64,000 nucleotides of DNA from NCBI RefSeq assembly GCF_945957525.1, contig NZ_CAMFLA010000001.1, positions 248,001 through 312,000 on the forward strand, in the 5' to 3' direction. The position numbers and the translations under genes were made by a program. Origin of the DNA: an uncultured Aquitalea sp. GTDB taxonomy: Bacteria > Pseudomonadota > Gammaproteobacteria > Burkholderiales > Chromobacteriaceae. Positions 1,129-62,658 of the stretch are shown piece after piece (the stretch's first letter is position 1; each line of letters begins with the position of its first letter). Below the pieces are notes generated by a model. The model searched no databases, had not been told where the DNA came from, and saw nothing but the letters and a program-made list of their open reading frames with translations.

Positions 1129-1443
1129 TTATAGCAACCAGCGCATCGCGCCGTAAACGACAAAGCTCACCACGATGGCCAGCAAGGTCTTGCCAGTTTT
1201 GAACGCCACCGCCAGCGACACCAGCGTGCCCACCAGCCAGGGATTGCCCGGGCGGATATCCAGCGTGCCGCCAGGGGCCAAGGCCATCGGCACCACCAGC
1301 GCCGACAGCACCGCCGCCGGCACATAGTGCAGTGCGCGATTCAACCAATCGGGAAAAGCCAGACGTTGGCCGAAGACCAGGAAACTGGCGCGAATGGCCA
1401 CCGTCACCGCCATCATGCCCAGAATTGCCAGCCACTCATGCAT
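1129..1443 (-). CDS. azlD: AzlD family branched-chain amino-acid exporter subunit
   Basis: 104-residue, almost wholly hydrophobic protein with about three to four membrane segments, matching the small AzlD partner of AzlC. AzlC and AzlD together form an inner-membrane exporter of branched-chain amino acids or their analogues. The gene follows azlC with an 8-base overlap (1436-1443), so translation is probably coupled. Length is normal for the family. A GTTGGCCGAAG motif lies antisense in it at 1365-1375. Confidence 0.85.
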   Translation of the reverse strand: MHEWLAILGMMAVTVAIRASFLVFGQRLAFPDWLNRALHYVPAAVLSALVVPMALAPGGTLDIRPGNPWLVGTLVSLAVAFKTGKTLLAIVVSFVVYGAMRWLL

Positions 1444-2146
1444 GATCGGCCTCCTTGCGGCCAGGGGCGCGCTCCAGCAGCATGCCCGCCGCCACGCCCA
1501 CTACGGCGGCCAGCATCAGATCCAGCTTGTAGGGCATGCCCCGCGCCAGCAAAGCGGTAAGCCCGGCGGCGCAGGCGGCACCCAGTGCCGGACGTTTTTT
1601 CAATTGCGGCGCGACGATGGCGGCAAAAGTGGCCACCATCGCGAAATCCAGCCCGAGATTGGCCAAGCCGGGAATGCTCTTGCCCAGCAGCACGCCCACC
1701 AGTGTCCAGAACAACCAGTTGCCGTACATGGCTAGCGAGGACGCCAGCCAGTAACACTCGCCCAGCTCACTGCCGCGTGAGCGGAAACGGTGCTCCACCA
1801 CGGCAAAGGTTTCATCGGTAAGCCAGAACGCCAGCGGCCAGCGCCAGCGCAACGACCAGTCGCGGGCAAAGGGCAGCAGCGTGGCGCTATAAAGCGCATG
1901 GCGCAGATTGACGACGAAGGTGGTAAGCCAGATCACCGGCAGCGCCGCACCGGCCCCGATCAGACTGACAGCGATGAACTGCGACGAACCGGCGAACACC
2001 AGCAGCGACATGCCCAGCGTGGCGGCAGAGGACAAGCCCGCGCCCACCGCCAGCGTGCCGAAGATCACGCCAAACGGCGCAGCGCCCACCAGCATGGGAA
2101 TGGTGTCGCGCATGCCCTCGATGAAAGCGTTGCGTGCTTCGCTCAC
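1436..2146 (-). CDS. azlC: AzlC family amino-acid exporter, large subunit
   Basis: 236-residue inner-membrane protein with several hydrophobic helices. The N-terminus 'FIEGMRDTIPMLVGAAPFG' and the segment 'GLSSAATLGMSLLVFAGSSQF' are characteristic of the AzlC family, which exports branched-chain amino acids together with AzlD. The start at 2146 overlaps the stop of the preceding GFA-family gene (ATGA arrangement), and the end overlaps azlD by 8 bases. AraC regulator, GFA enzyme, azlC and azlD thus look like one minus-strand operon. The substrate cannot be read from the sequence. Confidence 0.88.
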   Translation of the reverse strand: MSEARNAFIEGMRDTIPMLVGAAPFGVIFGTLAVGAGLSSAATLGMSLLVFAGSSQFIAVSLIGAGAALPVIWLTTFVVNLRHALYSATLLPFARDWSLRWRWPLAFWLTDETFAVVEHRFRSRGSELGECYWLASSLAMYGNWLFWTLVGVLLGKSIPGLANLGLDFAMVATFAAIVAPQLKKRPALGAACAAGLTALLARGMPYKLDLMLAAVVGVAAGMLLERAPGRKEADHA

Positions 2147-2574: not shown

Positions 2575-2595
2575 AGTAGCACGCGGGCGAACTGT

Positions 2596-3438
2596 TCAGC
2601 TTGAACGATATTGCGCCTTGCTGGCCAGCCCGCGCTGATAGGCCGCCGGCGTCACACCCAGCGAACGGCGGAAAGCACGGGTGAAATGCGCCTGGTCGGC
2701 AAAGCCCAGCTCCTGCGCCACCGTGCCGGCCGAGCGCCCCAGTCCCAGCAGCTGACGGCCACGCGCAATGCGCAACTGATTGCGCCAGGCCACCGGCGGC
2801 AGGCCGAACTGCCGCGCAAACTGCCGGTTGAACTGCCAAGGCGACAAGCCGGCCTCGGCGGCCAGCGCCTGCAGCGAGAGATTGTCGGCCAGTCGGTCGC
2901 TCAGCAGTTGCCGCGCCCGCTCGATCCCCGGCCGCGCCGATGCCGCCTCCCGCTCGCGCACTTGCATGTGTCGCTGCACCACGCTGGCGAACACCGCCTG
3001 CAACGCGCTTTCTCGCAGCAAGGCATCCGCGCTGTCGCGCAGCAGGCAATGCAGGCGATCCAGCTCGAGCGCCAGTTGCGGGTCCTGCACCACGGTTTGC
3101 CGAAAGAAAGGGATCGCGCCGCGACGGCCGCTGATGTCTTCGGCCAAACCGGTCATCAGCGACGCGGCAGGATAAAAACCGCGATAGGCCCAGCCTTGCT
3201 GATGCGCGCACTCCCCCGTGTGCACCTCGCCCGGATTGATCAGCACCAGCGCGCCCACGCCGGCCACATGCTGGCCGCCGCGATGGCGATAGGACTGCGC
3301 GCCGGTCGTCAGCGCATTGACGACATACTCTTCGTGAAAATGCGGAGCGAAGGTCTGGCTGTGATAAAAGGCGTCCAGGCACTCCAGCGGAGCGAGATCG
3401 TCAGCGCGAAAGAAACGGGCGTATTCACGGGAGGCCAT
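2596..3438 (-). CDS. AraC family transcriptional regulator with cupin-type sensor domain
   Basis: 280 residues. The N-terminal half (about 10-150) is an AraC-type ligand-binding cupin, with 'FAPHFHEEYVVNAL' and 'LINPGEVHTGE'. The C-terminal half (about 175-275) holds two helix-turn-helix units, with 'LSLQALAAEAGLSPWQFNRQF' (first) and 'GTVAQELGFADQAHFTRAF' (second). The ATG at 3438 matches the usual N-terminus; longer upstream starts add non-conserved sequence. It sits 21 bases upstream of the GFA-azlCD genes on the same strand and probably controls them. AraC regulators commonly accompany AzlCD exporters. Confidence 0.88.
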   Translation of the reverse strand: MASREYARFFRADDLAPLECLDAFYHSQTFAPHFHEEYVVNALTTGAQSYRHRGGQHVAGVGALVLINPGEVHTGECAHQQGWAYRGFYPAASLMTGLAEDISGRRGAIPFFRQTVVQDPQLALELDRLHCLLRDSADALLRESALQAVFASVVQRHMQVREREAASARPGIERARQLLSDRLADNLSLQALAAEAGLSPWQFNRQFARQFGLPPVAWRNQLRIARGRQLLGLGRSAGTVAQELGFADQAHFTRAFRRSLGVTPAAYQRGLASKAQYRSS

Positions 3439-4792: not shown

Positions 4793-4808
4793 ACCTGATC
4801 ACCGTATC

Positions 4809-5131: not shown

Positions 5132-5446
5132 ATGCAAGTCACCACGTTTACCTCTCCTGATTGCCCGCAAGCTGCCCTTGCCATCGAATACTGCACCGGC
5201 TGCCGCTGGCTGCTGCGCGCCGCCTGGATGGCGCAGGAACTGCTCACCACCTTTGAAAAAGAGTTGGCCGAAGTGGCGCTGCGCCCCGGCACCGGCGGTG
5301 TATTCCGCATTACGCTGAACGGCGACACGCTATGGGACCGCAAGGCCGATGGCGGCTTTCCGGACATCAAGGAGCTGAAGCAGCGAGTGCGCGACCTGGT
5401 TGCGCCGGACAAGGCGCTGGGTCACAGCGACCGCCCCGCAGGCTGA
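5132..5446 (+). CDS. SelT/SelW/SelH-family thioredoxin-like protein (Cys form)
   Basis: 104 residues. 'IEYCTGCRWLLRAAWMAQELLTTFEKEL' is the Rdx (SelW) family signature with a CxxC pair, a bacterial cysteine version of mammalian selenoprotein W. The fold is thioredoxin-like and redox-active, with unknown targets. The ATG at 5132 was preferred. A GTG at 5108 in the same frame would lie almost at the likely transcript start, given a TTATCC element near 5093, and neither start has a strong ribosome site. dinB begins 8 bases after its stop, so the two are probably co-transcribed. Confidence 0.8.
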   Translation: MQVTTFTSPDCPQAALAIEYCTGCRWLLRAAWMAQELLTTFEKELAEVALRPGTGGVFRITLNGDTLWDRKADGGFPDIKELKQRVRDLVAPDKALGHSDRPAG

Positions 5447-5454
5447 ACAAGGCC

Positions 5455-6537
5455 GTGAAGCCGCCTCGCAAGATCATCCATGTCGATTGCGACTGCTTTT
5501 ACGCCGCCATCGAAATGCGCGACAACCCCGAGCTGCGCGACATTCCGCTGGCCGTGGGCGGGCGGCCGGATTCGCGCGGCGTCATCTCCACCTGCAACTA
5601 TCTGGCCCGCCGCTACGGCGTGCACAGCGCCATGTCCTCCGCGCGCGCGCTGCGCCTGTGCCCAGCCTTGCGCATTTTGCCGCCGGACATGCGACGCTAC
5701 CGCGAGGCCAGCCAGGCCATCATGGGTATTTATGAGCGCTACACCGACCTGATTGAACCGCTATCGCTGGATGAGGCTTACCTAGATGTCAGCGGACAAC
5801 CGCATGAACAGGGCAGCGCCACGCTGATGGCGGAGGCCATACGCCGGCAAATCCGCGAAGAAGTGGGCATCACCGCCTCGGCCGGCATTGCCCCCAACAA
5901 GTTTCTGGCCAAAGTGGCCAGCGACTGGAACAAGCCCGATGGCCAGTTCCTCATTCGTCCGCGCGACGTGGACGCCTTTGTCGCCGTGCTGCCGGTGGAA
6001 AAAGTGCACGGCGTGGGCCGTGTGACGGCCGCGCATCTGAAAGAGCTGGGCATCCACACCTGTGGCGATTTGCGCGGCTGGGATCGCGCCGACTTGTTGC
6101 GCCATTTCGGCCGCTTCGGCGAACGCTTGTACGACCTCGCCCGCGGCGAAGACCACCGCCCAGTGTCAACAGACCGCCAGCGCAAATCTGTCAGTGTGGA
6201 AGAAACCTATCCGCAAGACCTGCCCGATCTCGCCGCCTGCATGAACAAGCTGCCGGAACTGGTGCAACGCCTGCAGGCCAGGCTGGAACGCGCCGGCAGC
6301 CCGCCCTTTCGCGGCCTGTCGGTCAAATTGAAGTTTGCCGATTTCAGCCAGACCACGGTGGAACAAACCGGCTTGCGCCTGTCCGCCACCGGCTTCGCCG
6401 ACTTGCTGGGCATTGCCTGGCGGCGCGCCGGCAAACCGGTGCGACTGGTGGGAGTGGGTGTCAGGTTGGCCGAAGACGAGGACGGGCCGACCCAGCTTAC
6501 GCTGTTCGGCCCGTCGGAAGCGGGCGCGGCCGGCTAA
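5455..6537 (+). CDS. dinB: DNA polymerase IV (Y-family translesion polymerase)
   Basis: 360 residues. N-terminal 'IIHVDCDCFYAAIEMRDNP' and 'PLSLDEAYLDVSG' contain the catalytic Asp/Asp-Glu set of the Y-family palm. 'TASAGIAPNKFLAKVASD' and 'VHGVGRVTAAHLKELGI' are palm and thumb (HhH) elements, and the C-terminal little-finger domain includes 'RKSVSVEETY'. It copies past DNA lesions without proofreading. The GTG at 5455 was chosen because it gives the standard short N-terminus and follows the upstream stop by 8 bases with AAGG in front. No LexA-like box was recognised nearby. Confidence 0.95.
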   Translation: MKPPRKIIHVDCDCFYAAIEMRDNPELRDIPLAVGGRPDSRGVISTCNYLARRYGVHSAMSSARALRLCPALRILPPDMRRYREASQAIMGIYERYTDLIEPLSLDEAYLDVSGQPHEQGSATLMAEAIRRQIREEVGITASAGIAPNKFLAKVASDWNKPDGQFLIRPRDVDAFVAVLPVEKVHGVGRVTAAHLKELGIHTCGDLRGWDRADLLRHFGRFGERLYDLARGEDHRPVSTDRQRKSVSVEETYPQDLPDLAACMNKLPELVQRLQARLERAGSPPFRGLSVKLKFADFSQTTVEQTGLRLSATGFADLLGIAWRRAGKPVRLVGVGVRLAEDEDGPTQLTLFGPSEAGAAG

Positions 6538-8795: not shown

Positions 8796-9711
8796 GGCCC
8801 GGCTTGCCGCCCGGCCAGCTGCCCGGTTTGTGGAATTCGATCACCTGACGACCATCGGCCAAGGTCTTGCCCTTGCGTTCGTCCTTGCCCTTCCAGGCAT
8901 GGCCGTATACCACTTCGTAAGTGGCGGGCAGCGCATTGTCGCGGCGGCGCGCTTCGTAAGCCTGCTCCACCTTGCGCCAGGCCTGCTTGCCCATCAGGCC
9001 GCGACCGCGCCCGGCAGTGGCGTTGTGCGCGCCAATGGCCTTCAGGTCTTTCATCACTTCGCGCGCGCCTGGATAGGTCATGACGATCTTTTCCATGTCC
9101 ATCACCGGTTCGGCAAACCCCACCCGCATCAGCGCATCGCCCAGATCGTGCATGTCGATGAACTGATTGACGTGGGTGGCGGCGTCGGCGTGGCTGAAAG
9201 CCTCGCGCAGCTCGAACAGGGTATCCGGACCCAAGGTGGAAAACATCAGCATGCCTTCGGGCTTCAGTACGCGGCGGAATTCGGCGAACACGCTGTCCGG
9301 AATGTTGACCCACTGGATGGTGAGGTTGGACCAGATCATGTCCACGCTGCTGTCGGCCAAGGGCAGGCGCTCGACATCGGCGCACACTTGCCAGGGTTCG
9401 CGGCGGAACAGTTTTTTCAACAGGCCGTCTCCGGCCTGCTGACGTTCGCGCGAAGCTTGCAGCATGGCCTGGGCCAGATCCAGCTCCACCACGCGCGCCT
9501 CGGGATAGCGGGCGCGCAACCTGGCCGCGCCGTAGCCGGTGCCGGTACCGGCATCCAGAATCACTTGCGGCTGAAACTTGATGTAATCCAGCCGCTCTTC
9601 CATGCGGTCGGATACTTCGCGTTGCAGCACAGCGGCGGCGTCGTAGCTGCGAGCGGCCTTTTCAAAAGAGGCGCGCACGCGCGACTTGTCGGTATAAAAC
9701 GCTTCGCTCAT
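8788..9711 (-). CDS. bioC: Malonyl-ACP O-methyltransferase BioC
   Basis: 307 residues. Class I methyltransferase: N-terminal 'KSRVRASFEKAARSYDAAAVLQREVSDRM' is the BioC signature, motif I is 'ILDAGTGTGYGAARLRARYP', and 'MIWSNLTIQWVNIP' is also BioC-like. BioC methylates the free carboxyl of malonyl-ACP with SAM so that fatty-acid synthesis can build pimeloyl-ACP methyl ester. It follows bioH with a 4-base overlap. At 307 residues it is somewhat longer than E. coli BioC (about 250), with extra C-terminal sequence usual in betaproteobacteria. Confidence 0.93.
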   Translation of the reverse strand: MSEAFYTDKSRVRASFEKAARSYDAAAVLQREVSDRMEERLDYIKFQPQVILDAGTGTGYGAARLRARYPEARVVELDLAQAMLQASRERQQAGDGLLKKLFRREPWQVCADVERLPLADSSVDMIWSNLTIQWVNIPDSVFAEFRRVLKPEGMLMFSTLGPDTLFELREAFSHADAATHVNQFIDMHDLGDALMRVGFAEPVMDMEKIVMTYPGAREVMKDLKAIGAHNATAGRGRGLMGKQAWRKVEQAYEARRRDNALPATYEVVYGHAWKGKDERKGKTLADGRQVIEFHKPGSWPGGKPGHD

Positions 9712-10478: not shown

Positions 10479-11114
10479 TTAAATGGGGGAGGCAGGCGGC
10501 TTTCGCAAGAGCGCGATGCGAAAGAAACCGCCAAAGCCGGCCTCTTCCTCATGATCGCGCAGCAAGGCCGTGGCCGACTGGATATCGCCCAGTCGGCGGT
10601 TGATGTCGGTGGCCAGCACGCGGGTCACAAGGTTGGCCGAAGCCCGCAGCAATGAGGCGCGACCGCGATCCGGCAGGAATTTGTCGAACACCACCGCCTT
10701 GCCGCCCGGTTTCAGCACCCGCTCCACCTCGCGCAGGCAGGCTACCGGATCGGGGATCACCGCCAGAATCAGATGCAGCACCACTTTGTCCATGCTGTTG
10801 TCGGGCAGCTCCAGCCGCTGCGCATCCATCACGCGCGCGTCCACCGGCAAACCCAGCGCATGGGCGCGTTCGGCCAACCTGCGCAACATGCCTTCGGATA
10901 CATCCACCGCGGTCAGGCGATGGCAGCGCACCAGAAAATCCAGATCCAGCCCGGTACCCGCGCCGACAATCAGCACCTGATCCTCCGGCTGCGGGTTGAG
11001 CAGCGCAATGGCGCGCCGGCGACGCGCGGCGAAACCCTGCGCCAGCTTGTCGTATAGCGGCGCGTAGAGGTTGTAGCGCCACCGGTTGAAACGGGTGGCC
11101 AGCTCACGCCGCAT
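10479..11114 (-). CDS. Class I SAM-dependent methyltransferase (UbiE/PmtA-like)
   Basis: 211 residues. 'RWRYNLYAPLYDKLAQ' resembles the N-terminus of UbiE and phospholipid N-methyltransferases. 'DQVLIVGAGTGLDLDFL' is motif I, 'ALGLPVDARVMDAQRLELPD' motif II and 'EVERVLKPGGKAVVFDKF' motif III. The substrate is unknown; phosphatidylethanolamine or a quinone precursor is possible from the resemblance only. The ATG at 11114 overlaps the upstream GGDEF-EAL gene by 11 bases. The stop is 6 bases before bioH, placing it inside a biotin-gene transcript. It carries an antisense AAGGTTGGCCGAAG motif (10629-10642). Confidence 0.85.
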   Translation of the reverse strand: MRRELATRFNRWRYNLYAPLYDKLAQGFAARRRRAIALLNPQPEDQVLIVGAGTGLDLDFLVRCHRLTAVDVSEGMLRRLAERAHALGLPVDARVMDAQRLELPDNSMDKVVLHLILAVIPDPVACLREVERVLKPGGKAVVFDKFLPDRGRASLLRASANLVTRVLATDINRRLGDIQSATALLRDHEEEAGFGGFFRIALLRKPPASPI

Positions 11115-13950
11115 GGCGGAACTCTTGTACAAAACGGGCCAGGCGCTCCCAGTCGATGGCGGCGGCCGGCGCGGGCGCGGCAAAGTAGAACCCCTGCAGC
11201 TTGCCGCAACCCATCTCTTGCAGACGCTGCAGCTGGGAAGCGGTTTCCACCCCTTCCGCCACCACGTCCAGTCCCAGCGCCTGCGCCAGCGCAAGAATGG
11301 CGCGCACGATGGCGGCGGACTCTTCCTTGCGGTCCACATCGAACACAAAGGACTGGTCGATCTTCAGCACGTCGAAGCGGTAGCGGTGCAGATAGGACAA
11401 CGCGGAATAGCCGGTGCCGAAATCGTCCAGCGCCAGCTTCACGCCCAGCTCGTGCAGGGCCTGCATGACGGTGGCGGCGATATCCGGCACATCAATCAGC
11501 GCGCTCTCGGTGATTTCCAGATGCAACGTGGACGGCGGCAGCCGGTGCTCGTCGATGACGCCGCTCATCCAGGTCACCAGCTCCGGATCATGAAAGTTGG
11601 CCGAAGACAGGTTGATGTGCAGCGTGATATCCGGCCCCACCCTGGCCTCGTCCAGCCAGGCGCGCAGCTGGCGGCACGCCGCCTGGATCATGTAGCGATC
11701 CAGCCGGGTAATCAGGCCGCTCTCCTCCGCCATTGGCAGGAACATGGCCGGCGAAATCAGTCCACGCTGCGGGTGACGCCAGCGCACCAGGGTTTCGAAG
11801 CCCACCAGATGGCCGTCTCGGGCATCGATGAAAGGCTGGAAGTACGGTAGCAGCTGGTCTTCTTCTTCCAGCGCGCGGCGCAGTTCTGTTTCCAGCGCCA
11901 GCTGATCCGCCTGATTGATGCGCAGCTGGTGGTTGAACACGGTATACCCCTGCCGCCCTTGCTGCTTGGTGCAGTACATGGCGTGGTCGGCGTCGCGCAG
12001 TAGCTCATCGGCCTTGGCGTAGTGATCCTTGTCAGCCAGCACCACGCCCACGCTGGCGGTGGAAAACACCTCGCGGCCGGCCAGGATCACTGGCCGTTCG
12101 AACTCGCTGACGATGCGGCGGGCAATCATTTCGCAGCCTTCCAGCGTATCGGTGCCAAACAGCAACACAGCGAATTCATCGCCGCCCAACCGGGCGAGAA
12201 AGTCGTAATGACGCAAGCAGGCGCGGATGCGGGCGCCGGCCTCAAACAAGAGATGGTCGCCGGCCAGATGCCCCAGCGTATCGTTGACCAGCTTGAAGCG
12301 GTCCAGGTCGATGAAGATGACGCTGAAACGCGCGCCGCTGCCGTTGAGGTAGCCCTCCCAGGCACGACGCAGGGTCTTGGAAAAATAGGTGCGATTGGGC
12401 AGTTTGGTTAGCGGGTCGTGCAAACTGTCGAATTCCAGCTGGGCATTGACCGCATCCAGCTCGCTGGTGCGCTCCCGAACGCGCTCTTCCAGCTCGGCGT
12501 AGGCGTCCTGCAACTCCTGCATGGCCCGCACCCGCGCCAGCGCGGTGCCGATGTTGTTGGCGACAAACTCCAGCACTTCCTGGTCGCGGAAGCTGTAGCT
12601 GACTTCTTGCTGATAACTTTGTACAGACAGCACGCCCAGCAACTCATGACCGCAGTAAAGCGGCACGCCCAGCCAGCTCTTGGGTTGCGGCAAATAAGCA
12701 TCTTCCGGCAGGCTCGGGTTCACCGCATAGGTGTCCACCAACATGGGGCGGCCGCTATGCAGCACCTGCTCGACATAGCCCTTGCCGGGCCGGCGCGACT
12801 TGGGCGAGCTGACATGCTCGTCCGCACAGTAGGGGAAGCTCAGCAGATCGGTGGTCATGTTGTACAAGGCCACCTGGCAATTGCGCGCCGGTACCATCTC
12901 CACCAGCAGGCGGTGCAGGCCGGCAAGAAAGGCTTCCAGCGACAGGCTGGTATTGGAGAGGTCGGCTATGCGGAACAGCACATCCTGGAACCGTTCGGCG
13001 CGCTTGCGCTCCGCCATCTCCGAACGCAAACGGGCATTGATGCCCTCCAGCTCGCAAGTGCGCTGCCACACCTGCCTCTCCAGCTGGCTGCGATACAACA
13101 CCCGGTCGAGCGCATAGCCGACATGGCGGGCGACAAACAGGAACAGCGACTGGTCGGCCGACGTGCAAGGCGCCTGATTGGCGTAGAACTGCAATACCGC
13201 CGCGCCGATGATGGCTCCGCTGGCATTTTGCAAAGGCACGCCCATCCAGAGTTCCGGCATCGGCCCCCGCGGGGCCAGGTTTTCCAGCGCCTGCACTTCC
13301 TGTAGACGCTCGCGCGTCATGACCAGCGGCTTACCGCCGCGAATCAGCCAGCCCGTCAACGACCGCTGACTGGCCTCGTCATCCATCAAGTCCTCGGGAC
13401 GCGGCGGCGTCGGGTCGATCTGGTCGGCAAAATAGGGAAAGGTGAGCGAAGTCGTTTGCTCATCGTAGAGGGCGATGTAGAAATTGCTGGCGTCCATCAA
13501 CCGCATCAGCAACCGGTGCAACTGCGGCAGCAGGCTTTCCATCGAGGTGCATTCCACCGGCAACTGGCTGATTTCCAGCAAGGTGTCGTGAATGACGCGC
13601 GACTCGGCCTGCGTGGACAGCAGGCGGGCGCTTTGCAAATGCCCGGCCAGCAGTGCCGCCACGGCGGGAAGATTGTCCGGCCGCCTGCCCCGCCATACCA
13701 GCCAGCCGATGACTTCGTCCTGCGCCGTCAAAGGCGTGGCTCCGCCATCAGGCCCTGGCAAGCGCCCAGCCGACAACGCCTCAGCCGTTGTCAGAGTGTC
13801 TGCCGCCCCAACGGCGGCCAGCCTTTGCCATACGGAACCCACCAAGCCCCAGACTGCGGCGGCGGCAGGTTCGCCCTGTTGTTGCAACAGGGCCAAGGCA
13901 ATGCTGGCGGCCTCCTGCTGGGTGGACAGGTAATCAGCCGTACTCTTCAT
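11104..13950 (-). CDS. GAF-GAF-GGDEF-EAL c-di-GMP signalling protein
   Basis: 948 residues, no obvious transmembrane segment, so probably cytosolic. Two GAF-type sensor domains (about 130-290 and 325-470), a short coiled coil ('LEERVRERTSELDAVNAQLE'), then GGDEF (about 505-660) with an intact 'ARLGGDEFAVLL' near residue 590. The EAL domain (about 690-930) has 'GFETLVRWRHP', 'INLSSANFHDPEL', 'LALDDFGTGYSALSYL' and 'VVAEGVET'. Both cyclase and phosphodiesterase motifs look intact; which activity dominates cannot be told. It shares 11 bases with the downstream methyltransferase gene and lies between bioF and bioH. Confidence 0.93.
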   Translation of the reverse strand: MKSTADYLSTQQEAASIALALLQQQGEPAAAAVWGLVGSVWQRLAAVGAADTLTTAEALSAGRLPGPDGGATPLTAQDEVIGWLVWRGRRPDNLPAVAALLAGHLQSARLLSTQAESRVIHDTLLEISQLPVECTSMESLLPQLHRLLMRLMDASNFYIALYDEQTTSLTFPYFADQIDPTPPRPEDLMDDEASQRSLTGWLIRGGKPLVMTRERLQEVQALENLAPRGPMPELWMGVPLQNASGAIIGAAVLQFYANQAPCTSADQSLFLFVARHVGYALDRVLYRSQLERQVWQRTCELEGINARLRSEMAERKRAERFQDVLFRIADLSNTSLSLEAFLAGLHRLLVEMVPARNCQVALYNMTTDLLSFPYCADEHVSSPKSRRPGKGYVEQVLHSGRPMLVDTYAVNPSLPEDAYLPQPKSWLGVPLYCGHELLGVLSVQSYQQEVSYSFRDQEVLEFVANNIGTALARVRAMQELQDAYAELEERVRERTSELDAVNAQLEFDSLHDPLTKLPNRTYFSKTLRRAWEGYLNGSGARFSVIFIDLDRFKLVNDTLGHLAGDHLLFEAGARIRACLRHYDFLARLGGDEFAVLLFGTDTLEGCEMIARRIVSEFERPVILAGREVFSTASVGVVLADKDHYAKADELLRDADHAMYCTKQQGRQGYTVFNHQLRINQADQLALETELRRALEEEDQLLPYFQPFIDARDGHLVGFETLVRWRHPQRGLISPAMFLPMAEESGLITRLDRYMIQAACRQLRAWLDEARVGPDITLHINLSSANFHDPELVTWMSGVIDEHRLPPSTLHLEITESALIDVPDIAATVMQALHELGVKLALDDFGTGYSALSYLHRYRFDVLKIDQSFVFDVDRKEESAAIVRAILALAQALGLDVVAEGVETASQLQRLQEMGCGKLQGFYFAAPAPAAAIDWERLARFVQEFRHAA

Positions 13951-14023: not shown

Positions 14024-15169
14024 TCATGCCGCCAACACGGCGCTCAGCACTCTCTCCAGCTGTTCTTCACCGTGAGCCGCCGACAAGGCAAGGCGCAGAC
14101 GGGCCGTCCCCTCCGGCACCGTGGGCGGGCGGATGGCTGGCACCCAGAACCCCTGCTCCTTCAACCTTGCGGCAAGCGACATCGCCTGCTCGTCGCAGCC
14201 TATGATAATGGGCTGTATCGGTGTACGGGAAGGGGCTAGCCGGAAACGTCCTTCGGCCAACCCTCGCCTTGCCTGGGCGATGCGATCCGCCAGCGCCTGG
14301 CGTCGCCAGGTCTCCTCCCGCATCACTTGCAAACTGGCCAGCACGCCGGCAGCCAGCGCCGGCGGTTGGGCGGTAGTGAAGATATAGCTTCTCGCCACAT
14401 TCACCAACCACGCCACCAGCGCGGCGCTGCCGGCGACAAAAGCGCCGGCCACGCCCGCAGCCTTGCCCAGCGTGGCCATATAGATCAGCCGTTCGCCATG
14501 CAAGCCTTGCTCGGTTGCGGAACCCCGCCCCTCGCCCAATACTCCGAATCCGTGCGCATCATCGATGTAAAGCCACGAATCATATTTATCGGCCAGTTCC
14601 TGCAATTTCTTTAATGGCGCTTCATCGCCATCCATGCTGTACACCGCATCCACGGCAATCAGGCGAGTGCGTGCCGGCGTGGTAGCCAGCAAATGTTCAA
14701 GCTGTTCGAGGTCATTGTGACGAAACCGGCGAAACTCTGCCCGTGACAGCAAACAGGCGTCGTTGAGCGAGGCGTGGTTGAGACGGTCGGCAAACACGGC
14801 ATCGCCACGCCCCACCAGACTGGTGATCACCGCCTGATTGGCGGCGTAACCAGAACCGAACATCAGCGCGGCCGGCATGCCGACAAAATCGGCCAACGCC
14901 GCCTCGGCTTCCTCGTGCAGGGCAAAGTGCCCGGCCACCAGATGCGAAGCGCCGCCGCCCAGCCCCCATTTTTCCAGCGCGTCCCTCACCGCACCCACCA
15001 GCCGAGGATGGTTGGCCAGGCCCAGATAGTCGTTGCTGGCAAAACCGACATAAGGCTTGCCGTCCACCACAATGTCGACCCCTTGCGGAGTCTCCAGCAG
15101 ATGGCGCTGGCGGTAGCGATGCCGATCACGCAAATCCTGCAGCGCGGCGGCGATGTCCTGATGACGCAT
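14024..15169 (-). CDS. bioF: 8-amino-7-oxononanoate synthase BioF
   Basis: 381 residues, PLP-dependent alpha-oxoamine synthase. 'YVGFASNDYLGLANHP' at the N-terminus, 'GGGASHLVAGH', the catalytic region 'YIDDAHGFGVLGE', and the PLP-binding lysine in 'ATLGKAAGVAGAFVAG'. It joins pimeloyl-ACP and alanine to give 7-keto-8-aminopelargonic acid. ATG at 15169. An AT-rich stretch with TATATA (15219-15235 on the minus strand) just upstream suggests its own promoter in addition to read-through from bioB. A sense GTTGGCCGAAG motif ends at 14251. Confidence 0.95.
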   Translation of the reverse strand: MRHQDIAAALQDLRDRHRYRQRHLLETPQGVDIVVDGKPYVGFASNDYLGLANHPRLVGAVRDALEKWGLGGGASHLVAGHFALHEEAEAALADFVGMPAALMFGSGYAANQAVITSLVGRGDAVFADRLNHASLNDACLLSRAEFRRFRHNDLEQLEHLLATTPARTRLIAVDAVYSMDGDEAPLKKLQELADKYDSWLYIDDAHGFGVLGEGRGSATEQGLHGERLIYMATLGKAAGVAGAFVAGSAALVAWLVNVARSYIFTTAQPPALAAGVLASLQVMREETWRRQALADRIAQARRGLAEGRFRLAPSRTPIQPIIIGCDEQAMSLAARLKEQGFWVPAIRPPTVPEGTARLRLALSAAHGEEQLERVLSAVLAA

Positions 15170-20245: not shown

Positions 20246-20261
20246 GTGTTCGGCAAACATA

Positions 20262-48076: not shown

Positions 48077-49912
48077 TCATTCTCTCCAAAGCGGGTGGTG
48101 GAAGCTCATGGCGCCGGCTTCCGCGGCGTTGGCCGACTCGCGGAAAACGGCGAAGAGCTCGCGGCCCACGCCAAACTGATTGTGTTCGAGGTTGGCGACG
48201 GCCTGGTCGCGTTGCGCCCATTCCTCCGCCGGTACTTTCACTTCCAGCGTGCCGGCCACGGCGTCCAGCCGCACGATATCACCATCGCGCACCTTGCCGA
48301 TAGCGCCGCCGCTGACGGCTTCCGGGCTGACATGAATAGCGGCTGGCACCTTGCCGGACGCGCCGGACATGCGACCATCGGTCACCAGCGCCACGGCAAA
48401 GCCGCGCTCTTGCAGGATGCTCAGCGCCGGGGTCAGCTTGTGCAACTCCGGCATGCCGTTGGCGCGCGGGCCCTGGAAGCGGATCACCGCTACAAAGTCG
48501 CGCTCCAGCTCGCCGCGCTTGAAGGCGGCCAGCATGTCGTTCTGATCATGGAATACCACCGCCGGAGCTTCCACCACGCGGTGTTCCGGCTTGACCGCCG
48601 ACACTTTGATGACGGCGCGACCCAGGTTGCCGCTCACCACGCGCAAGCCGCCGTCCGGCGAGAAAGCGTCGCTGGCCGGGCGCAGCACGTCGAGGTCGCC
48701 GCTGAGGGCCGGGGCCGGTCGCCACTTGAGCGCCGCGCCGTCCAGCCACGGCTCATTGGCATAGGCGGACAGCCCCTTGCCGACGATAGTGGCAACGTCC
48801 TCGTGCAACAGACCGGCGGACAGCAGTTCGCGAATCACGAAACCCATGCCGCCCGCGGCGTGGAAATGGTTCACATCGGCCTTGCCGTTGGGGTAGACGC
48901 GGGTCAGCAGCGGCACGGCGGCGGACAATTCATCAAAATCGTCCCAGTTGATGTCGATGCCGGCGGCGCGGGCAATGGCCACCAGATGCAGTGTGTGATT
49001 GGTGGAACCGCCAGTGGCCAAGAGGCCGACGATGGCGTTGACGATGGATTTTTCATCGATCATGCGCCCGACGGGAGTGAAATGCTCGCCCTGGGCGACA
49101 ATCTTCACGGCTTGGCGCGCGGCCTCACGGGTGAGCGCCTGACGCAGCGGCGTGCCAGGGGTGACGAAGGCGGTGCCCGGCAGATGCAGGCCCATGATCT
49201 CCATCATCATCTGGTTGGAGTTGGCGGTACCGTAGAAGGTGCAGGTGCCGGGGCCGTGGTAAGACTGGCATTCCGATTCCAGCAAGGCGTCGCGGCCTAC
49301 CTTGCCTTCGGCAAACAGTTGGCGCACCTTGGCTTTTTCATCATTGGCGATGCCGGTGGTCATCGGACCGGCCGGCACAAACACCGCCGGCAGATGGCCG
49401 AAGGTGAGCGCGCCGATCAGCAGGCCCGGCACGATCTTGTCGCACACGCCCAGATACAGGGCGGCGTCGAACATCTGGTGCGACAGCGCCACGGCGGTGC
49501 TCATGGCGATCACATCGCGGGAAAACAGCGACAGCTCCATGCCCGGCTGGCCTTGGGTCACGCCGTCGCACATGGCGGGCACGCCGCCTGCAAACTGGGC
49601 CGTGGCCCCAGCCGCCAGCGCGGCTTCCTTGATCCAGGCCGGATAGGCTTCCAGCGGCTGGTGGGCGGACAGCATGTCGTTGTAGGCCGAGACAATCGCC
49701 AGATTGGCGCGGCGATCTTCCTTGAGATGGATCTTGATGCTGTCGGGCATGGCCGCGAAAGCATGCGCCTGATTGGTACAGGACAGTTGCGAGCGCTCCA
49801 CCCGGCCTTGCCGGATCTGCGCGTCCAGATGCGCCAGATACGCCGTGCGGCGCGCGCGGCTGCGGTCTATGATGCGCTCGGTGACACTGTGCAATACCGG
49901 ATGCAAAGCCAT
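48077..49912 (-). CDS. edd: 6-Phosphogluconate dehydratase
   Basis: 611 residues, IlvD/Edd family. Iron-sulphur ligand cysteines lie in '[20 protein letters not shown]', '[13 protein letters not shown]' and '[24 protein letters not shown]'. '[24 protein letters not shown]' is the C-terminal signature. It converts 6-phosphogluconate to KDPG. ATG at 49912. A HexR-like box (49942-49957) overlaps the putative promoter. Confidence 0.96.
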
Positions 49913-51643: not shown

Positions 51644-52010
51644 ACCGGGCGCGCCCTGCCCAGATTATGACCAAGGCCCTCCCGCCTTCCCTTCAGGAAG
51701 CGGGAAGCCCTTCTTCAATGGAATTGGCAGGACAAGGGGATGGGGAATGAGAGCGGCTAACAGCGCCTCGCAAAGCCCCTGAACCAAGGCGCGCCGACGC
51801 TGGCGGTACATGGCGCAAGACTCGCAGGCGCAACGCTGGATCAGGGGTGTTGTTGGCGGGCCTGAACGAGAAGGCGACAGCATCAAGCAGTTACGTCGAA
51901 GAGCCGGGCTTTGCCGGGCTCCGCACTCGCACCCAATGATTTTCCGCCGGCCCCGCCCGTCGGCGCAGCAACAACAAGGTTGGCCGAAGCCAGCCGGAGG
52001 AGAAAACAAG
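51644..52010. other. 367-bp gap between zwf and pgl
   Basis: No convincing gene. A stem at 51681-51690/51696-51704 (one bulge) may end the zwf transcript. The rest contains short direct repeats (GCCGGGC twice near 51903-51919) and a full AAGGTTGGCCGAAGC motif just before the pgl ribosome site. Frames on both strands are open but unrelated to anything I recognise. It may be a decayed gene remnant. Confidence 0.5.
51976..51990 (+). repeat. Full-length intergenic copy of AAGGTTGGCCGAAGC
   Basis: It lies 20 bases before the pgl start, directly upstream of its GGAGGA ribosome site. It matches the 15 bases found inside the methyltransferase gene at 10629-10643. Confidence 0.6.
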
Positions 52011-52688: not shown

Positions 52689-53646
52689 AGCCTGGCCGCG
52701 CCTGGTGGCCGACATCGGCGGCACCAATGCGCGCTTTGCGCTAGAAACCGCCCCCGGCGTGCTGGAAGACGTCGAAGTACTGCCTTGCGCCGGCTTCGCC
52801 ACGCTGGAAGCGGCCATGCGCAGCTATCTGGCGCGCGTTGCAGCCCATGCCGTCTCGCACGCCGCCATCGGCATCGCCAACCCGGTCACTGGCGACTGGG
52901 TACAGATGACCAATCATCACTGGGCGTTTTCCATTGAAGCCACTCGCCAGGCGCTGGGCCTTGCCAGCCTGGTGGTGATCAACGATTTCACCGCGCTGGC
53001 CCTGTCGCTGCCGCATCTGCCGGCCGACGAGCTGGTGCAGGTGGGCGGCGGCGAACCGGTAGCCGGCGGCCCGCTGGCGCTGATCGGCCCGGGCACCGGG
53101 CTGGGCGTGTCGGCGCTGATTCCGCACGCCGGCGGCTACACGCCCTTGTCCGGCGAAGGCGGCCACGTCAGCTTTGCGCCCTTCGACGAGCGCGAAGCCG
53201 CCGTCTGGCGCTTTGCCCGCGACCGCTTCGGTCACGTCTCGGCCGAACGCCTGCTGTCCGGTCCCGGCCTGGTGCTGATTTACCAGGCGCTGGCCGCGCT
53301 GGCCGGCGAAGATGCGGCCGATTACAGCGCGGCCGACATCACCGAACGCGGCCTGACCGGGCAATGCCCGCGCTGCCGCGAAACCCTGGACGCCTTCTGC
53401 GCCATGCTGGGCACGGCTTCGGCCAACCTAGCGCTGACGCTGGGGGCACGTGGCGGGGTTTACCTTGGCGGTGGTATCGTTCCACGTTTGATCGATTACT
53501 TCAAAACGTCGCCCTTCCGGCCGCGCTTCGAGGACAAGGGCCGTTTTTCCGCCTACATGGCGGCCATTCCGGTTTATGTCATCGATAGCCGCTACCCGGC
53601 CCTCATCGGGGCCAGCGCAGCGCTGGCGGCGCATCTGGAGCACTGA
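52669..53646 (+). CDS. glk: Glucokinase
   Basis: 325 residues, bacterial Glk (ASKHA fold). '[17 protein letters not shown]' (phosphate 1), '[23 protein letters not shown]', '[16 protein letters not shown]' with the catalytic Asp, '[15 protein letters not shown]', '[17 protein letters not shown]', '[11 protein letters not shown]'. It phosphorylates glucose with ATP. It starts inside the end of pgl and is followed 2 bases later by hexR. Confidence 0.96.
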
Positions 53647-54515: not shown

Positions 54516-56151
54516 CCTGACCCAGCTGCCGGCCTGGCAGTCGCTGTGGGATCACTTCGCCGAAGCCAAGCAGCGCCACATGCGCGAACTGTTTGCCGAA
54601 GACCCCGACCGCGCCGATCGTTACTCGCTGGAAGTGGGCGGTCTGTTCCTCGATTACTCCAAGAACCGCATCACCGACGCCACCCTCAGCGGCCTGATGC
54701 AACTGGCGCGCGAATCCGGCCTGCCCGATCGCATCAAGGCCATGTTCAAGGGCGAGAAGATCAACAGCACGGAAAACCGCGCCGTGCTGCACGTGGCGCT
54801 GCGCAATCGCACCAACTCGCCCATCCATGTGGACGGCGAAGACGTGATGCCCAAGGTGAATTCGGTGCTGGAACGCATGGGCAAGTTCGCCCACGCCGTG
54901 CGCTCGGGCGAATGGCTGGGCTACACCAACCAGCCCATCACCGACATCGTCAACATCGGCATCGGCGGTTCCGATCTTGGCCCGCTGATGGTATGCAGCG
55001 CGCTCAAGCCCTTCGGCCATCCGCGCATGAACATGCACTTCGTCTCCAATGTGGACGGCGCGCAGCTGAAGGAAACGCTGAAGAAAGTCCACTCCGAAAC
55101 CACCCTGTTCGTTGTGGAATCCAAAACCTTCACCACGCAGGAAACCCTCACCAACGCGCTCACCGCGCGCGACTGGTTCTTGCAGCGCGCCCGCGACGAA
55201 AAGGCCGTAGCCAAGCACTTCGTGGCTGTGTCCACCAACCAGAAGGCCGTGGCCGATTTCGGCATCGACCCATCCAACATGTTCGAATTCTGGGACTGGG
55301 TGGGCGGCCGTTACAGCCTGTGGTCGGCCATCGGCCTGCCCATCATGCTGTATCTGGGCGAGGAGAACTTCACCGAGCTGCTCAACGGCGCGCACATCAT
55401 GGACCAGCATTTCCGCAATGCGCCGTTCGAACAAAACATGCCGGTGCTGCTGGCCATGATCGGCATCTGGTACATCAACTACTACGGCGGCGGCAGCCAT
55501 GTGATCGCCCCCTACGACCAGTACCTGCACCGCCTGCCGGCCTTCATCCAGCAACTGGACATGGAGTCCAACGGCAAACAGGTGCAAGTGGACGGCACCC
55601 CGGTGAACTTTGAAACCGCCCCCATCATCTGGGGCGAAACCGGCATCAACGGCCAGCACGCCTTCTTCCAGCTCTTGCATCAGGGCACCCACATTTCGCC
55701 GATCGACCTGATCGCCTCGCTGGAGGGCCAGGGCAGCCTGCCGGGCCACCATGAAATCCTGCTGGCCAACGTATTTGCCCAGGCCGAAGCCTTCATGCGC
55801 GGCAAAACAGCCGACGAAGTGCGCGAAGAGCTGACCAAGCAAGGCATGAGCGGCGAGGCGCTGGAAGCGCTGGTGCCGCACAAGGTGTTTGGCGGCAACC
55901 GCCCCACCAACACCCTGCTGATGCACCGGCTGGACCCGCGCAACCTCGGCTCGCTGATTGCCCTCTACGAACACAAGATCTTCGTGCAAGGCGTTATCTG
56001 GGGTATCAACAGCTTTGACCAGTGGGGCGTGGAACTGGGCAAGCAACTGGCCAAGACCATTCATGCCGAGCTGACCGGCAAGCTGAAAAACGCCGAGCAC
56101 GACAGCTCCACCCGGCGTCTGATCCAGCTGTATCGCCAGGCCAACAAGTAA
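54508..56151 (+). CDS. pgi: Glucose-6-phosphate isomerase
   Basis: 547 residues. '[18 protein letters not shown]' (first sugar-phosphate site), '[17 protein letters not shown]', '[20 protein letters not shown]' (PGI signature), '[33 protein letters not shown]' and the C-terminal '[15 protein letters not shown]' (signature 2). It interconverts glucose-6- and fructose-6-phosphate. ATG at 54508, overlapping hexR. It ends the pgl-glk-hexR-pgi run. Confidence 0.97.
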
Positions 56152-57578: not shown

Positions 57579-58229
57579 TCAGCGATAGCGGGCGTTGCTG
57601 ACGAAGGGATTGTGACGCTTCTCCTCGCCCAGCGTGGTGAGCGGGCCGTGGCCCGGGATCACCACCACCTCGTCGGGCAGGGCGAACAGCTTGTTCTCGA
57701 TGGCGTCTATCAGCTGCTGATGATTGCCCATGGGAAAGTCCGTGCGCCCAATGGAGCCCTGAAACAACACATCGCCCGCCACCAGCAGCGCAGCCTCCGG
57801 GCTGTAAAACACCACATGGCCCGGCGTGTGGCCCGGGCAGTGGATCACTTGCAAGGTTTCCCGCCCCACGCTGACCGTATCGCCTTCGGCCAACCATCGC
57901 TGCGGCGTCAGCGCCGGCACGGAAGGAAAACCGAACATGCGCCCCTGATGTGGCAACTGGTCCAGCCAGAAGCTTTCCGCCTCTTGCGGGCCTTCAATCG
58001 CCACGCCCAAGCGCTCGGCCAGCTCGGCCGCGCCGCCGGCGTGATCGATATGGCCGTGGGTCAGCAACAGTTTGGTCACCGTCAGTTTGCGCTCGGACAG
58101 CCAGGCAAGGATGCGCTCCACATCGCCGCCGGCGTCCACCACCGCGGCTTCGCGGGTGGCGTCGCACCACAGCACGCTGCAATTCTGGGCAAACGGAGTA
58201 ACAGGAATCAGGTGATAGCGCAGGGACAT
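57579..58229 (-). CDS. Metallo-beta-lactamase-fold hydrolase (glyoxalase II-like, YcbL type)
   Basis: 216 residues. 'LLLTHGHIDHAGGAAELAERLGV' is the HxHxDH metal motif, 'HCPGHTPGHVVFY' the second His, 'LLVAGDVLFQGSIGRTDFP' the bridging Asp, and 'VVIPGHGPLTTLGEEKRHNPF' the last His. It resembles YcbL/type II glyoxalases that hydrolyse thioesters such as S-lactoylglutathione. The ATG at 58229 gives the typical 'LRYHLIPVTPFAQNC' start. Confidence 0.9.
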   Translation of the reverse strand: MSLRYHLIPVTPFAQNCSVLWCDATREAAVVDAGGDVERILAWLSERKLTVTKLLLTHGHIDHAGGAAELAERLGVAIEGPQEAESFWLDQLPHQGRMFGFPSVPALTPQRWLAEGDTVSVGRETLQVIHCPGHTPGHVVFYSPEAALLVAGDVLFQGSIGRTDFPMGNHQQLIDAIENKLFALPDEVVVIPGHGPLTTLGEEKRHNPFVSNARYR

Positions 58230-58356
58230 GGCAGGCTCGGCAAAATACGGAGAATGCCGCGATTGTGGCATGCAGGCCGCGCCCGGGCCAAGCTTGTCGA
58301 GGCAAGCGGCGGATTACAGGTAAAATGCCGCTTTTGCCGTTTGCCGAAAGCCCGCC

Positions 58357-59926: not shown

Positions 59927-59958
59927 CTGCCCGCCCAAGCGCGCGGCGCAAGGGAGGA

Positions 59959-62658
59959 TCAACCGCTGTTGCGCAAGCCGGCGGAGGTGCCGTTGATGGT
60001 GAGGTGAATGGCGTACAGCGCCTCGGCGTCGTCGGGATTTTCACGCAGGCGTTGCAACAAATCGGCCTGCAGCAAATTGAGCGCGTCCAGATAAGGCAGG
60101 CGGGTTTCCAGGCTGCGGTACAGGGTGGGATTGTCCGCCAGCAAGCGGGTTTGACCGGTGATGGCGAAGAAGGCGTCGTGCGTTTTGCGCCATTCGCTTT
60201 CAATCTGGCCAAACAGTTTGTCGGCCAGCGCTCTATCCGACACCAGCGCGGCAAAGCGGCGGGCGATGCCCAGATCGGCCTTGGCCAGTACCTGCTCCAT
60301 ATTGGACAGGATGACCTGGAAGAACGGCGAGGTGCGGTACAAGCCTTGCAGACGCGCCAGCCCTTCGTCGCCGTGACGGGCGATATAGGCGGACACCGCC
60401 GAACCGAAGCCGAACCAGCCCGGCAGCATCACCCGCGATTGCGACCAGGAGAACACCCAGGGGATGGCGCGCAGGTCCTTGATGCTGGAGAGGCTCTTGC
60501 GCGAGGCCGGGCGGCTGCCGATGTTGAGCTTCGCGATGGCGTTGATGGGCGTGGCTTCGAGGAAGTACTGCATGAAGCCCTCGGTTTCCACCAGCGCGCG
60601 GTAGGCCGCGAAGGCGGTGTCGGACAGCTCGTCGAACACATCGCCGTCGGCCTCGCCGCTGGGGTGGCTGGTGAGGCTGGCTTCCAGCGTGGCGGCCACC
60701 AAGGCTTCCAGATTGCGCAGGCCGATGTCCGGATCGGAATACTTGGACGCGATGACTTCGCCCTGCTCGGTAATGCGGATGCGCCCGGCCACGCTGCCGG
60801 CTGGCTGGGCCATGATGGCCTCGTAGGACGGGCCGCCGCCGCGCCCCACCGAGCCGCCGCGACCATGGAACAGGCGCAGCTTGACGCCGGCCCGTTCAAA
60901 GCTGTTCACCAGCCGCTGTTCCGCCTTGTACAGCTCCCACTGGCTGGTGAGATATCCGCCATCCTTGTTGCTGTCGGAATACCCCAGCATCACTTCCTGC
61001 GTCAGGCCGCGGCTTTGCAGCAGCTGGCGATACCACGGCAGGGCGAACAACGCGTCCATGATGTCGGTGCAGCCGGCCAGGTCGGCGATGGTTTCAAACA
61101 AGGGCACCAGATTGAGGCTGGACACCGGCACGCCGTTCACCAGCCGGATCAGGCCGGTTTCCTTGAGGATGAGCGCCAGCGAGAGGATGTCGCTGACGGT
61201 GGCGCAGTTGGAGATGATGCTCTGGCTGATGGCTTCCTGCCCGAACTGGCGCTGGATCAGCGCCGCCTCACGGAAGATGGCCAGCTCTTTTTCGGTGTCG
61301 GCGCTGTAATCCTGATAGGGCGAATACAACATGCGCGGCGTGGACAGTTCGCGCAGCAACACGCGAATGCGCGCCGGCTCGTCCAGCGCGGTGAACTGCT
61401 CCAGCCCGGCGCTGGCGAACAATTCGCTCACCACCGCTTCATGCGTGCCGGCAAACTGGCGCAGATCCACCGGCATCAGGAAGAAGCCGAATACTTCCAC
61501 GGCGCGGCGCAGACGCGAGAGCCGGCCTTCGGCCAACAACGAGCTGCCGTGCGCGGCCAGCGAATCAGCCACCGTGGCCAGATCGGCCTGCAACTCGTCT
61601 GCGCCGGCATAGGCTTCGCCGGCCGGCCAGCGGCCGCGCACCGGCAAACCCAGTTCGGCAGCCTTGCCCAGCAAGCGCGACTCCATCGCCGCCAAAGCGC
61701 GGCGATAGGGTTCTTGCTCGCGGCTTTCCTTGGTGTCCGGCGTGCGGTCCGCCAGCGCTTGCAAGGCCGGGCTCACCGACACATGGCGCGCGGACAGCGA
61801 CAGCTCGCGGTACAGTGCGGCCAGTTCGTACAGATAATGTTCAAACGCCTGGGTGGCTTGCAGGGTGAAAGCGTGACGCAACACCGTGGCGTTGACGTTG
61901 GGGTTGCCGTCGCGATCGCCGCCGATCCAGCTGCCCACACGGATGAAGGGCGGCAGGGCCGGGGTCTGGCCCCAGGCGGCGCGCACTTCGTGCCCCAGCC
62001 GCTCATACAGCCGCGGCAGGGCGGAGAAGAAGGTCATCGGGTGGTAGGCCACGCCGTTCTTGATTTCGTCCTCCACCGACAGCTTGAAATGACGGATTTC
62101 CGAGGTTTGCCACAGGGACAGGATCACCCGCTTGAGCTTGCCGTCCAGCTCGTCTTCCTCTTCCGGCGTGATGTCCGGCGAACCGAGCTGACTGAGGAAT
62201 TTGCGCACGGCGCGGTGGCCGTCCAGCACGCTCTGGCGCTGCACTTCGGTGGGGTGCGCGGTAAGGATGGCCCCCACATACGATTCCTTCAGCGTGTCGG
62301 CCAGCTTGTCGAAACCGATGCCATCCTGTTTCAAGCGAGCCAGCGCGCGATTGAGGCTGCCCTGCTGCGGGGCGGAGCCGGCAATCTGGTGCGCGCGACG
62401 GCGGCGGGTGTGGTGCAGGTCTTCCGCAATATTGAACAGCTGCGCATACAAGCCACAGGCGCGCACCAGCGCGGTAGTGGCTTTGGGCGACAGCCCGGCC
62501 GGCAGCGGCAGCGAGCGCTGCTCCGGCGTACGGGCGGCAATGGCGCGCACTTCTTCGCATACTTCGGCGCCTTCCTGCTCCTGCAGGATGTTGCCCAACA
62601 AGCGGTCAAGGCGCGCCAGGTCGGCGCGCAAAGGCAGATCCTTGTCCTGATCAGTCAT
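59959..62658 (-). CDS. ppc: Phosphoenolpyruvate carboxylase
   Basis: 899 residues, full length. 'GAILTAHPTEVQRQSVLDGH' with the catalytic His (about 136), 'WIGGDRDGNPNVN', 'MLGYSDSNKDGGYLTSQWELYKAE' and 'LRLFHGRGGSVGRGGGPSYEAIMAQP', and the C-terminal 'IHLTINGTSAGLRNSG'. It makes oxaloacetate from PEP and bicarbonate to refill the TCA cycle. ATG at 62658. Divergent from hemC across a 468-base gap. Confidence 0.97.
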   Translation of the reverse strand: MTDQDKDLPLRADLARLDRLLGNILQEQEGAEVCEEVRAIAARTPEQRSLPLPAGLSPKATTALVRACGLYAQLFNIAEDLHHTRRRRAHQIAGSAPQQGSLNRALARLKQDGIGFDKLADTLKESYVGAILTAHPTEVQRQSVLDGHRAVRKFLSQLGSPDITPEEEDELDGKLKRVILSLWQTSEIRHFKLSVEDEIKNGVAYHPMTFFSALPRLYERLGHEVRAAWGQTPALPPFIRVGSWIGGDRDGNPNVNATVLRHAFTLQATQAFEHYLYELAALYRELSLSARHVSVSPALQALADRTPDTKESREQEPYRRALAAMESRLLGKAAELGLPVRGRWPAGEAYAGADELQADLATVADSLAAHGSSLLAEGRLSRLRRAVEVFGFFLMPVDLRQFAGTHEAVVSELFASAGLEQFTALDEPARIRVLLRELSTPRMLYSPYQDYSADTEKELAIFREAALIQRQFGQEAISQSIISNCATVSDILSLALILKETGLIRLVNGVPVSSLNLVPLFETIADLAGCTDIMDALFALPWYRQLLQSRGLTQEVMLGYSDSNKDGGYLTSQWELYKAEQRLVNSFERAGVKLRLFHGRGGSVGRGGGPSYEAIMAQPAGSVAGRIRITEQGEVIASKYSDPDIGLRNLEALVAATLEASLTSHPSGEADGDVFDELSDTAFAAYRALVETEGFMQYFLEATPINAIAKLNIGSRPASRKSLSSIKDLRAIPWVFSWSQSRVMLPGWFGFGSAVSAYIARHGDEGLARLQGLYRTSPFFQVILSNMEQVLAKADLGIARRFAALVSDRALADKLFGQIESEWRKTHDAFFAITGQTRLLADNPTLYRSLETRLPYLDALNLLQADLLQRLRENPDDAEALYAIHLTINGTSAGLRNSG

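Follow-up and report, generated by a model that had tools for sequence, protein, structure and literature searches.

The decamer GTTKGCCGAA, dispersed through a 64-kb window (the whole stretch of DNA analysed here, from an uncultured Aquitalea sp.), is very probably the uptake signature of the genome to which the window belongs, working like the DNA uptake sequence (DUS) of Neisseria. Our results support the DUS-like role that a first-pass annotation of the window had proposed, the step to uptake itself being one that we infer. In such a system a minor pilin of the ComP type, housed in the type IV pilus, would recognise free DNA by the word, and the pilus would draw this DNA in via PilQ, after which ComEC and DprA would deliver it to recombination. 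Uptake would in this way favour DNA of kin, and biased uptake together with recombination would spread and maintain the word across the recombining part of the genome. ComP presumably binds the word, uptake is presumably biased, and this bias would be the cause of the enrichment. By the published definition the word is no member of the DUS family, because it lacks the CTG core and its ComP lacks the four-cysteine DD region; we would class it as a variant, found in Chromobacteriaceae, of the DUS-ComP kind.

Direct counting found 22 exact copies of GTTGGCCGAAG in the window, 11 per strand, as the first-pass annotation had reported; every copy was present and 21 of the 22 starts were right, the remaining copy starting at 34085 instead of 34086. 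One hundred dinucleotide shuffles yielded a mean of 0.05 copies and at most 1, in agreement with the earlier estimate of far less than one, for which a GC content of about 63% had been assumed (measured, 62.9%), and GTTGGCCGAAG ranked highest by z-score among the 11-mers of the window under a third-order Markov model. According to our own simple gene calls, used here and for the larger sample below, 13 of these copies lie sense and 6 antisense in genes and 3 are intergenic, which bears out both the mixed orientation and the three intergenic copies described earlier. The extent of the motif had been caught in part: the GTTGGCCGAAG copies were right, and a second permitted form, GTTTGCCGAA, with 11 copies, was overlooked together with one copy of GTTGGCCGAA that has no G after it, so that GTTKGCCGAA totals 34 copies in the window (Table 1).

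The enrichment extends to the whole genome of the window organism (G000; 4.05 Mb, an assembly of 35 contigs), which holds 627 copies of GGTTGGCCGAA against 5 of the reversed control and 194 of AAGGTTGGCCGAAG against 1. A sample of 454,400 bases of G000, consisting of the window and 20 further stretches, contains GTTGGCCGAA 151 times and GTTTGCCGAA 89 times, with about 7 of each expected under a fifth-order model, and at most 13 copies of any remaining one-base variant of the 10-mer. As these two forms are enriched and the other one-base variants lie near background, the word of the window genome is GTTKGCCGAA, K being G or T; extrapolation from the 240 sites in the sample suggests some 2,100 per genome. 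Counts so far above expectation dispose of the objection, anticipated in the first-pass annotation, that abundance might be close to a Markov background. The T form (GTTTGCCGAA) has so far been seen only in G000, with 0–1 copies per 80 kb in four genomes sharing its spelling (G010, G014, G011 and G018).

In the G000 sample a G directly follows the word in 75% of the G-form copies, in 56% there is an A two bases upstream, and base preference drops to background a few bases either side. These flanks make it highly improbable that the word is carried by a dispersed mobile repeat resembling a repetitive extragenic palindrome or a miniature inverted-repeat transposable element: inverted pairs do occur, and one related genome (G021) has an array of longer repeats containing the word, but nearly all copies in G000 are single, with only 3 pairs among the 240 sites. 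That array (L200:3594-11051, on G021:C1) is built of direct repeats with units of 134–300 nt, carries motif copies in the AG spelling on both strands and also in the AA spelling, and holds 86-nt repeats as well, which we take to resemble integron attC sites. L200 was one of four G021 stretches and was selected for its motif cluster, so its 0.78 sites/kb is inflated.

Nor does coding account for the word. Of the 240 sample sites, 124 are sense, 67 antisense and 49 intergenic, and the biggest class (112) is sense in a Leu-Ala-Glu or Phe-Ala-Glu frame, as would be seen if the word were a by-product of these common tripeptides written with favoured codons. We give that explanation next to no probability, since TTGGCCGAA writes 83 of 193 Leu-Ala-Glu tripeptides where codon usage predicts 9.2, nearly half of the sites are intergenic or antisense, and nine genomes of the same genus are without the word. 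The earlier statement that protein sequence alone is no explanation therefore stands.

We surveyed 61 Chromobacteriaceae genomes, that of the window included, with genus names taken from named contigs within the same genomes. Three spellings were found, one of them dominant in each of 23 genomes, and none in the other 38. GGTTGGCCGAA dominates in 8 genomes (G000 and those of groups g2, g3, g6 and g10), with 655, 532 and, in an 84%-complete genome, 105 copies in g2 (Pseudogulbenkiania), 902 and 233 in g3, 957 in g6 and 968 in g10 (a genome 80% complete with 7% contamination); GGTTGGCCGCA dominates in 13 of 13 g5 (Vogesella) genomes, at 1141 to 1510 copies, and GGTTGGCCGAG in both g4 genomes, at 1030 and 729. 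Minority spellings occur at low count: G020 also has 53 copies spelled the AG way, and the two g4 genomes have 38 and 33 copies of the AA form. The motif-less genomes comprise 9 Aquitalea, 19 of g7 (mostly Chromobacterium), 6 of g8 (mostly Paludibacterium) and 4 of g9. A tree built on as many as eight window proteins, from which loci with fewer than five of the eight were left out (5 of 36), puts the window next to five named Aquitalea at 86–87% identity, and the nine other genomes placed in its genus have 0 to 8 copies of GGTTGGCCGAA each. De novo searches in G001 (Aquitalea), G023 (Chromobacterium), G016 and G017, covering 80 kb per genome, revealed no comparable dispersed word, at a sensitivity that a weaker or rarer word could have escaped. 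Across a sample of the order (399 genomes, 386 of them outside the family), scanned for the three spellings found here, such that different words would escape, no genome outside the family had a count in the hundreds and the top total was 62. Viral contigs were uninformative, with one copy in each among the matches listed (80 listed, from at least 120 stretches).

A candidate receptor accompanies the word, namely a relative of ComP, which in Neisseria is the receptor for the DUS. A profile (A1) built from nine ComP-like pilins matched at 88.9 bits or more in 57 of the 61 genomes; the four g9 genomes gave 64–65 bits or no match, and have neither ComP nor motif. All 23 motif-bearing genomes, including that of the window, have a ComP relative of at least 122.6 bits, so the ComP-like minor pilin that the first-pass annotation had suggested looking for is there. 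Other pilins score up to 112.6 bits, which makes four matches in the g8 (Paludibacterium) group at 88.9–99.7 bits uncertain as ComP; a ComP match in one g8 genome (G103:C1:465057-465458) contains one in-frame TGA. The comP gene of G000 (L132:878-1330), which itself contains AGGTTGGCCGAAG, encodes a protein that passes the Pfam ComP_DUS (PF16732) cut-off of 27.3 with 41.0 bits, and whose PDB matches are headed by 2m3k, 5hz7 and 2nba (E about 3e-10; the last, a prepilin-type protein in the match table, we take to be N. subflava ComP), the matches extending past the common pilin helix. Pfam ComP_DUS by itself is unspecific: all 40 of the genomes tried have at least one match, and many of the matching proteins are pilins encoded next to large genes of the pilus-tip type. 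Two large genes of G000 (L129:10307-13468 and L130:7561-10674), presumably pilus-tip PilY1, each adjoin another ComP_DUS-matching minor pilin. A plasmid search gave no match for the ComP of the window genome. PilQ, ComEC and DprA all score above cut-off in G000; of 13 genomes tried, 13 have PilQ, 13 DprA and 12 ComEC, and motif-less genomes have these genes too. A tree was built from 55 of the 57 ComPs (G009 and G104 left out). In it, the Vogesella proteins form one group, the window ComP sits on a long branch beside those of Aquitalea, and the CA and AG spellings are each confined to one side of a branch.

The placement of the sites bears on whether the word might instead be a chromosome-architecture or recombination signal, such as an FtsK-orienting polar sequence (KOPS), Chi or a nucleoid-protein site, unrelated to uptake. 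In the G000 sample the spacing of sites has a coefficient of variation of 0.73 against 0.95 in simulations, none of 2000 being that low; the even spread noted earlier is thus more regular than random placement. A 20-kb Mu-like prophage stretch (L122; G000:C4:1-20000), which carries genes for a Mu-type portal and for a Mu-like prophage I protein, has 1 copy where 11.0 are expected, with a P of 2e-4 that is uncorrected for the choice of L122, the only prophage examined, as the lowest of 20 stretches. The one copy present falls in a gene for a methyl-accepting chemotaxis receptor. An architecture signal would be as compatible as an uptake signature with the genome-wide spread, the evenness and the low count in the prophage stretch, but KOPS-like motifs are polar, and per-stretch strand counts showed no local polarity (chi2 10.9, 21 degrees of freedom, p 0.97), with strand totals nearly equal in motif-bearing genomes. 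The strand bias that the first-pass annotation had wanted checked is accordingly absent at the local scale, the one our test addresses. Moreover, the spelling differs by genus, two of the three spellings (CA and AG) each keep to one side of a branch of the ComP tree, and the lack of the word in 38 of 61 relatives would be odd for an essential signal, so that we regard an architecture role as unlikely. For G000, then, the candidates rejected are a coding by-product on the codon evidence, a polar signal on the local strand counts, and a mobile repeat on the single copies and their flanks.

We aligned the window with 11 related loci, five from Aquitalea and two each from Chromobacterium, Pseudogulbenkiania and Vogesella, with 3–8 gap-free window sites in each. 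The first-pass annotation had named conservation at orthologous sites as a check, and on this count the outcome was negative: no window site is retained exactly in any of the 11 loci, and in the Aquitalea loci site identity is 0.66–0.73 against 0.83–0.84 for random 10-mers. This result shows site turnover and gives no support to long-term upkeep at one place. Between Vogesella loci, exact retention exceeded that of random 10-mers in 10 of 10 pairs, ranging from 11/12 versus 0.46 down to 5/9 versus 0.54, the pairs having genomes in common and the numbers being small. Two comparisons within Pseudogulbenkiania (2/2 and 2/3, each versus 0.68) gave no signal.

Several observations weigh against an uptake signature, among them the restriction of the prophage evidence to L122 and the rarity of inverted pairs in G000. 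ComP occurs in 30 to 34 of the 38 motif-less genomes and is therefore no predictor of the motif. In the part counted, the motif-bearing ComPs have 2 cysteines (21 of 23) or 3 (2 of 23), not four, and all three spellings have CCG, not CTG, as their core (+6 to +8). Sites in G000 are not concentrated between genes, 18.6% of the sample being noncoding; some genomes of other families have, at low counts, several times as many copies as of the reversed control (39 versus 6, for example); and the two Pseudogulbenkiania loci, which share the spelling of the window, keep 0 of 6 and 0 of 5 aligned window sites exactly, with 0.20 and 0.18 for random 10-mers. Two columns of the ComP alignment, chosen by scanning all columns for contrast, separate motif-bearing from motif-less proteins, in counts that are not independent, as motif and residues follow a tree. 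Column 116, which the alignment places in the beta1-beta2 loop, counts in favour of the uptake reading: 22 of 23 motif-bearing ComPs have D there, versus 5 of 32 motif-less ones. At column 75 the motif-bearing ComPs have K or R in 22 of 23 cases and the motif-less ones in 0 of 32, but the lone motif-bearing exception (T) is the window ComP, which counts against that reading. This deviation, together with the sister Aquitalea that are without the word, is what one might expect of a relic, an ancestral uptake word now out of use in the window organism. We consider a relic very unlikely, since decay without upkeep should leave many one-base variants, and in G000 these are near background.

We favour, with some reserve, a history in which DUS-ComP self-recognition predates the split of Neisseriaceae and Chromobacteriaceae, the CTG core is changeable, the spelling drifts by genus along with the loops of ComP, and Chromobacterium, Paludibacterium and most Aquitalea lost the word but for the most part kept comP. 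If true, such an origin would be the opposite of the published one after the split. An uptake role for the word would mean that ComP-type sequence-specific DNA uptake reaches a further family of bacteria, in the face of a published negative that includes one same strain, and that the conserved CTG core is not essential to the kind. The three spellings, and one motif-bearing genome beside nine motif-less ones within a genus, offer natural contrasts for finding the specificity residues of ComP.

Two other features of the window were recorded. The comF of the first-pass annotation is plausible, a ComF-like gene at 16385-17095 having a phosphoribosyltransferase and a double zinc ribbon domain, both barely above their cut-offs, and adds little to the uptake reading. 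Positions 18727-18809 match the anti-hemB RNA family at 57.9 bits, above the gathering score.

Table 1. Copies of GTTKGCCGAA in the 64-kb window.
Feature	Position	Strand	Basis
GTTGGCCGAAG copy	1365..1375	+	exact match
GTTTGCCGAA variant copy	3095..3104	+	exact match
GTTGGCCGAAG copy	5263..5273	+	exact match
GTTGGCCGAAG copy	6465..6475	+	exact match
GTTTGCCGAA variant copy	9109..9118	-	exact match
GTTGGCCGAAG copy	10632..10642	+	exact match
GTTGGCCGAA copy, next base C	10869..10878	-	exact match
GTTGGCCGAAG copy	11596..11606	+	exact match
GTTGGCCGAAG copy	14251..14261	-	exact match
GTTGGCCGAAG copy, intergenic	15245..15255	-	exact match, own gene calls
GTTTGCCGAA variant copy, intergenic	20249..20258	-	exact match
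GTTTGCCGAA variant copy	21773..21782	+	exact match
GTTGGCCGAAG copy	23786..23796	-	exact match
GTTTGCCGAA variant copy	25903..25912	-	exact match
GTTGGCCGAAG copy	27366..27376	+	exact match
GTTGGCCGAAG copy, intergenic	28475..28485	-	exact match, own gene calls
GTTTGCCGAA variant copy	31514..31523	+	exact match
GTTGGCCGAAG copy	33638..33648	+	exact match
GTTGGCCGAAG copy	34085..34095	+	exact match
GTTTGCCGAA variant copy	35199..35208	+	exact match
GTTTGCCGAA variant copy	36140..36149	-	exact match
GTTGGCCGAAG copy	38135..38145	+	exact match
GTTGGCCGAAG copy, left arm of inverted pair, intragenic	40152..40162	+	exact match
GTTGGCCGAAG copy, right arm of inverted pair, intragenic	40164..40174	-	exact match
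GTTGGCCGAAG copy	45850..45860	-	exact match
GTTGGCCGAAG copy	46576..46586	-	exact match
GTTGGCCGAAG copy	47113..47123	-	exact match
GTTTGCCGAA variant copy	49307..49316	-	exact match
GTTGGCCGAAG copy, intergenic	51979..51989	+	exact match, own gene calls
GTTGGCCGAAG copy	53417..53427	-	exact match
GTTTGCCGAA variant copy	54591..54600	+	exact match
GTTGGCCGAAG copy	57884..57894	-	exact match
GTTTGCCGAA variant copy, intergenic	58339..58348	+	exact match
GTTGGCCGAAG copy	61527..61537	-	exact match

The work on DUS dialects (Frye et al., 2013; PMC3630211) describes a CTG core kept in every dialect and no obvious DUS in five genomes, Lutiella nitroferrum 2002 among them. It also reports that BLAST found no ComP in C. 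violaceum, and has the system arise only once the lineage had parted from the ancestor that it shares with that species. L. nitroferrum 2002 is Pseudogulbenkiania ferrooxidans 2002 in the NCBI taxonomy, and in the genome of this strain (L023, G078) we counted 655 copies of GGTTGGCCGAA and 1 of the reversed control, which stands against the published negative. The literature searched by title and abstract start (with preprints and most subscription papers outside its scope) did not yield any description of an uptake word from Chromobacteriaceae, and the letters of the motif turned up in 19 papers, unrelated by title, so the earlier description of the word as undescribed holds within that literature.

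In Neisseria, inverted DUS pairs are found in terminators. Similar pairs were seen in Vogesella, some with flanking A and T runs that are terminator-like; opposed pairs at most 45 bp apart numbered 6 in G013 (Vogesella), 8 in G021 (some in the repeated array), 3 in G011, 1 each in G014 and G018, and 0 in G010, in samples of 80 kb. The word resembles the DUS of Neisseriaceae in being a 10–12-bp, high-copy word with a lineage-specific spelling, strong genome-wide over-representation, no local polarity (in G000) and a ComP relative in the genome. Aligned in register, AGGTTGGCCGAA and AG-simDUS agree at 9 of 12 positions (over 6 dialects, both strands and shifts to 2, a best match that high has a P of about 0.009), and the Vogesella and g4 12-mer spellings match AG-simDUS at 8. 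Besides the core, the differences from the DUS lie at +5, which is G, at +10, where one spelling (g4) has G and the other two have A, and in the occurrence of the word in Chromobacteriaceae, where PMC3630211 reports no obvious DUS in five genomes. G at +5, C at +7 and, in g4, G at +10 are new relative to the dialects compared; T at +2 is shared with the neisserial variant GtCGTCTGAA (PMC2911385), and C at +9 of the Vogesella spelling with AA-king3DUS. For Neisseria ComP, Berry et al. (2016; PMC4906244) give the DD region and the beta1-beta2 loop as the main DNA contacts and state that the residues setting specificity are unknown. Neisseria ComP has four cysteines there, unlike the motif-bearing ComPs described here, whose 2–3 make no double-disulfide DD region; three ComP structures (2m3k, 5hz7 and 2nba) are the PDB entries that the window ComP matches best. 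As a dispersed word for the uptake of self-DNA, GTTKGCCGAA is also comparable to the uptake signal sequence of Pasteurellaceae (described in PMC4906244).

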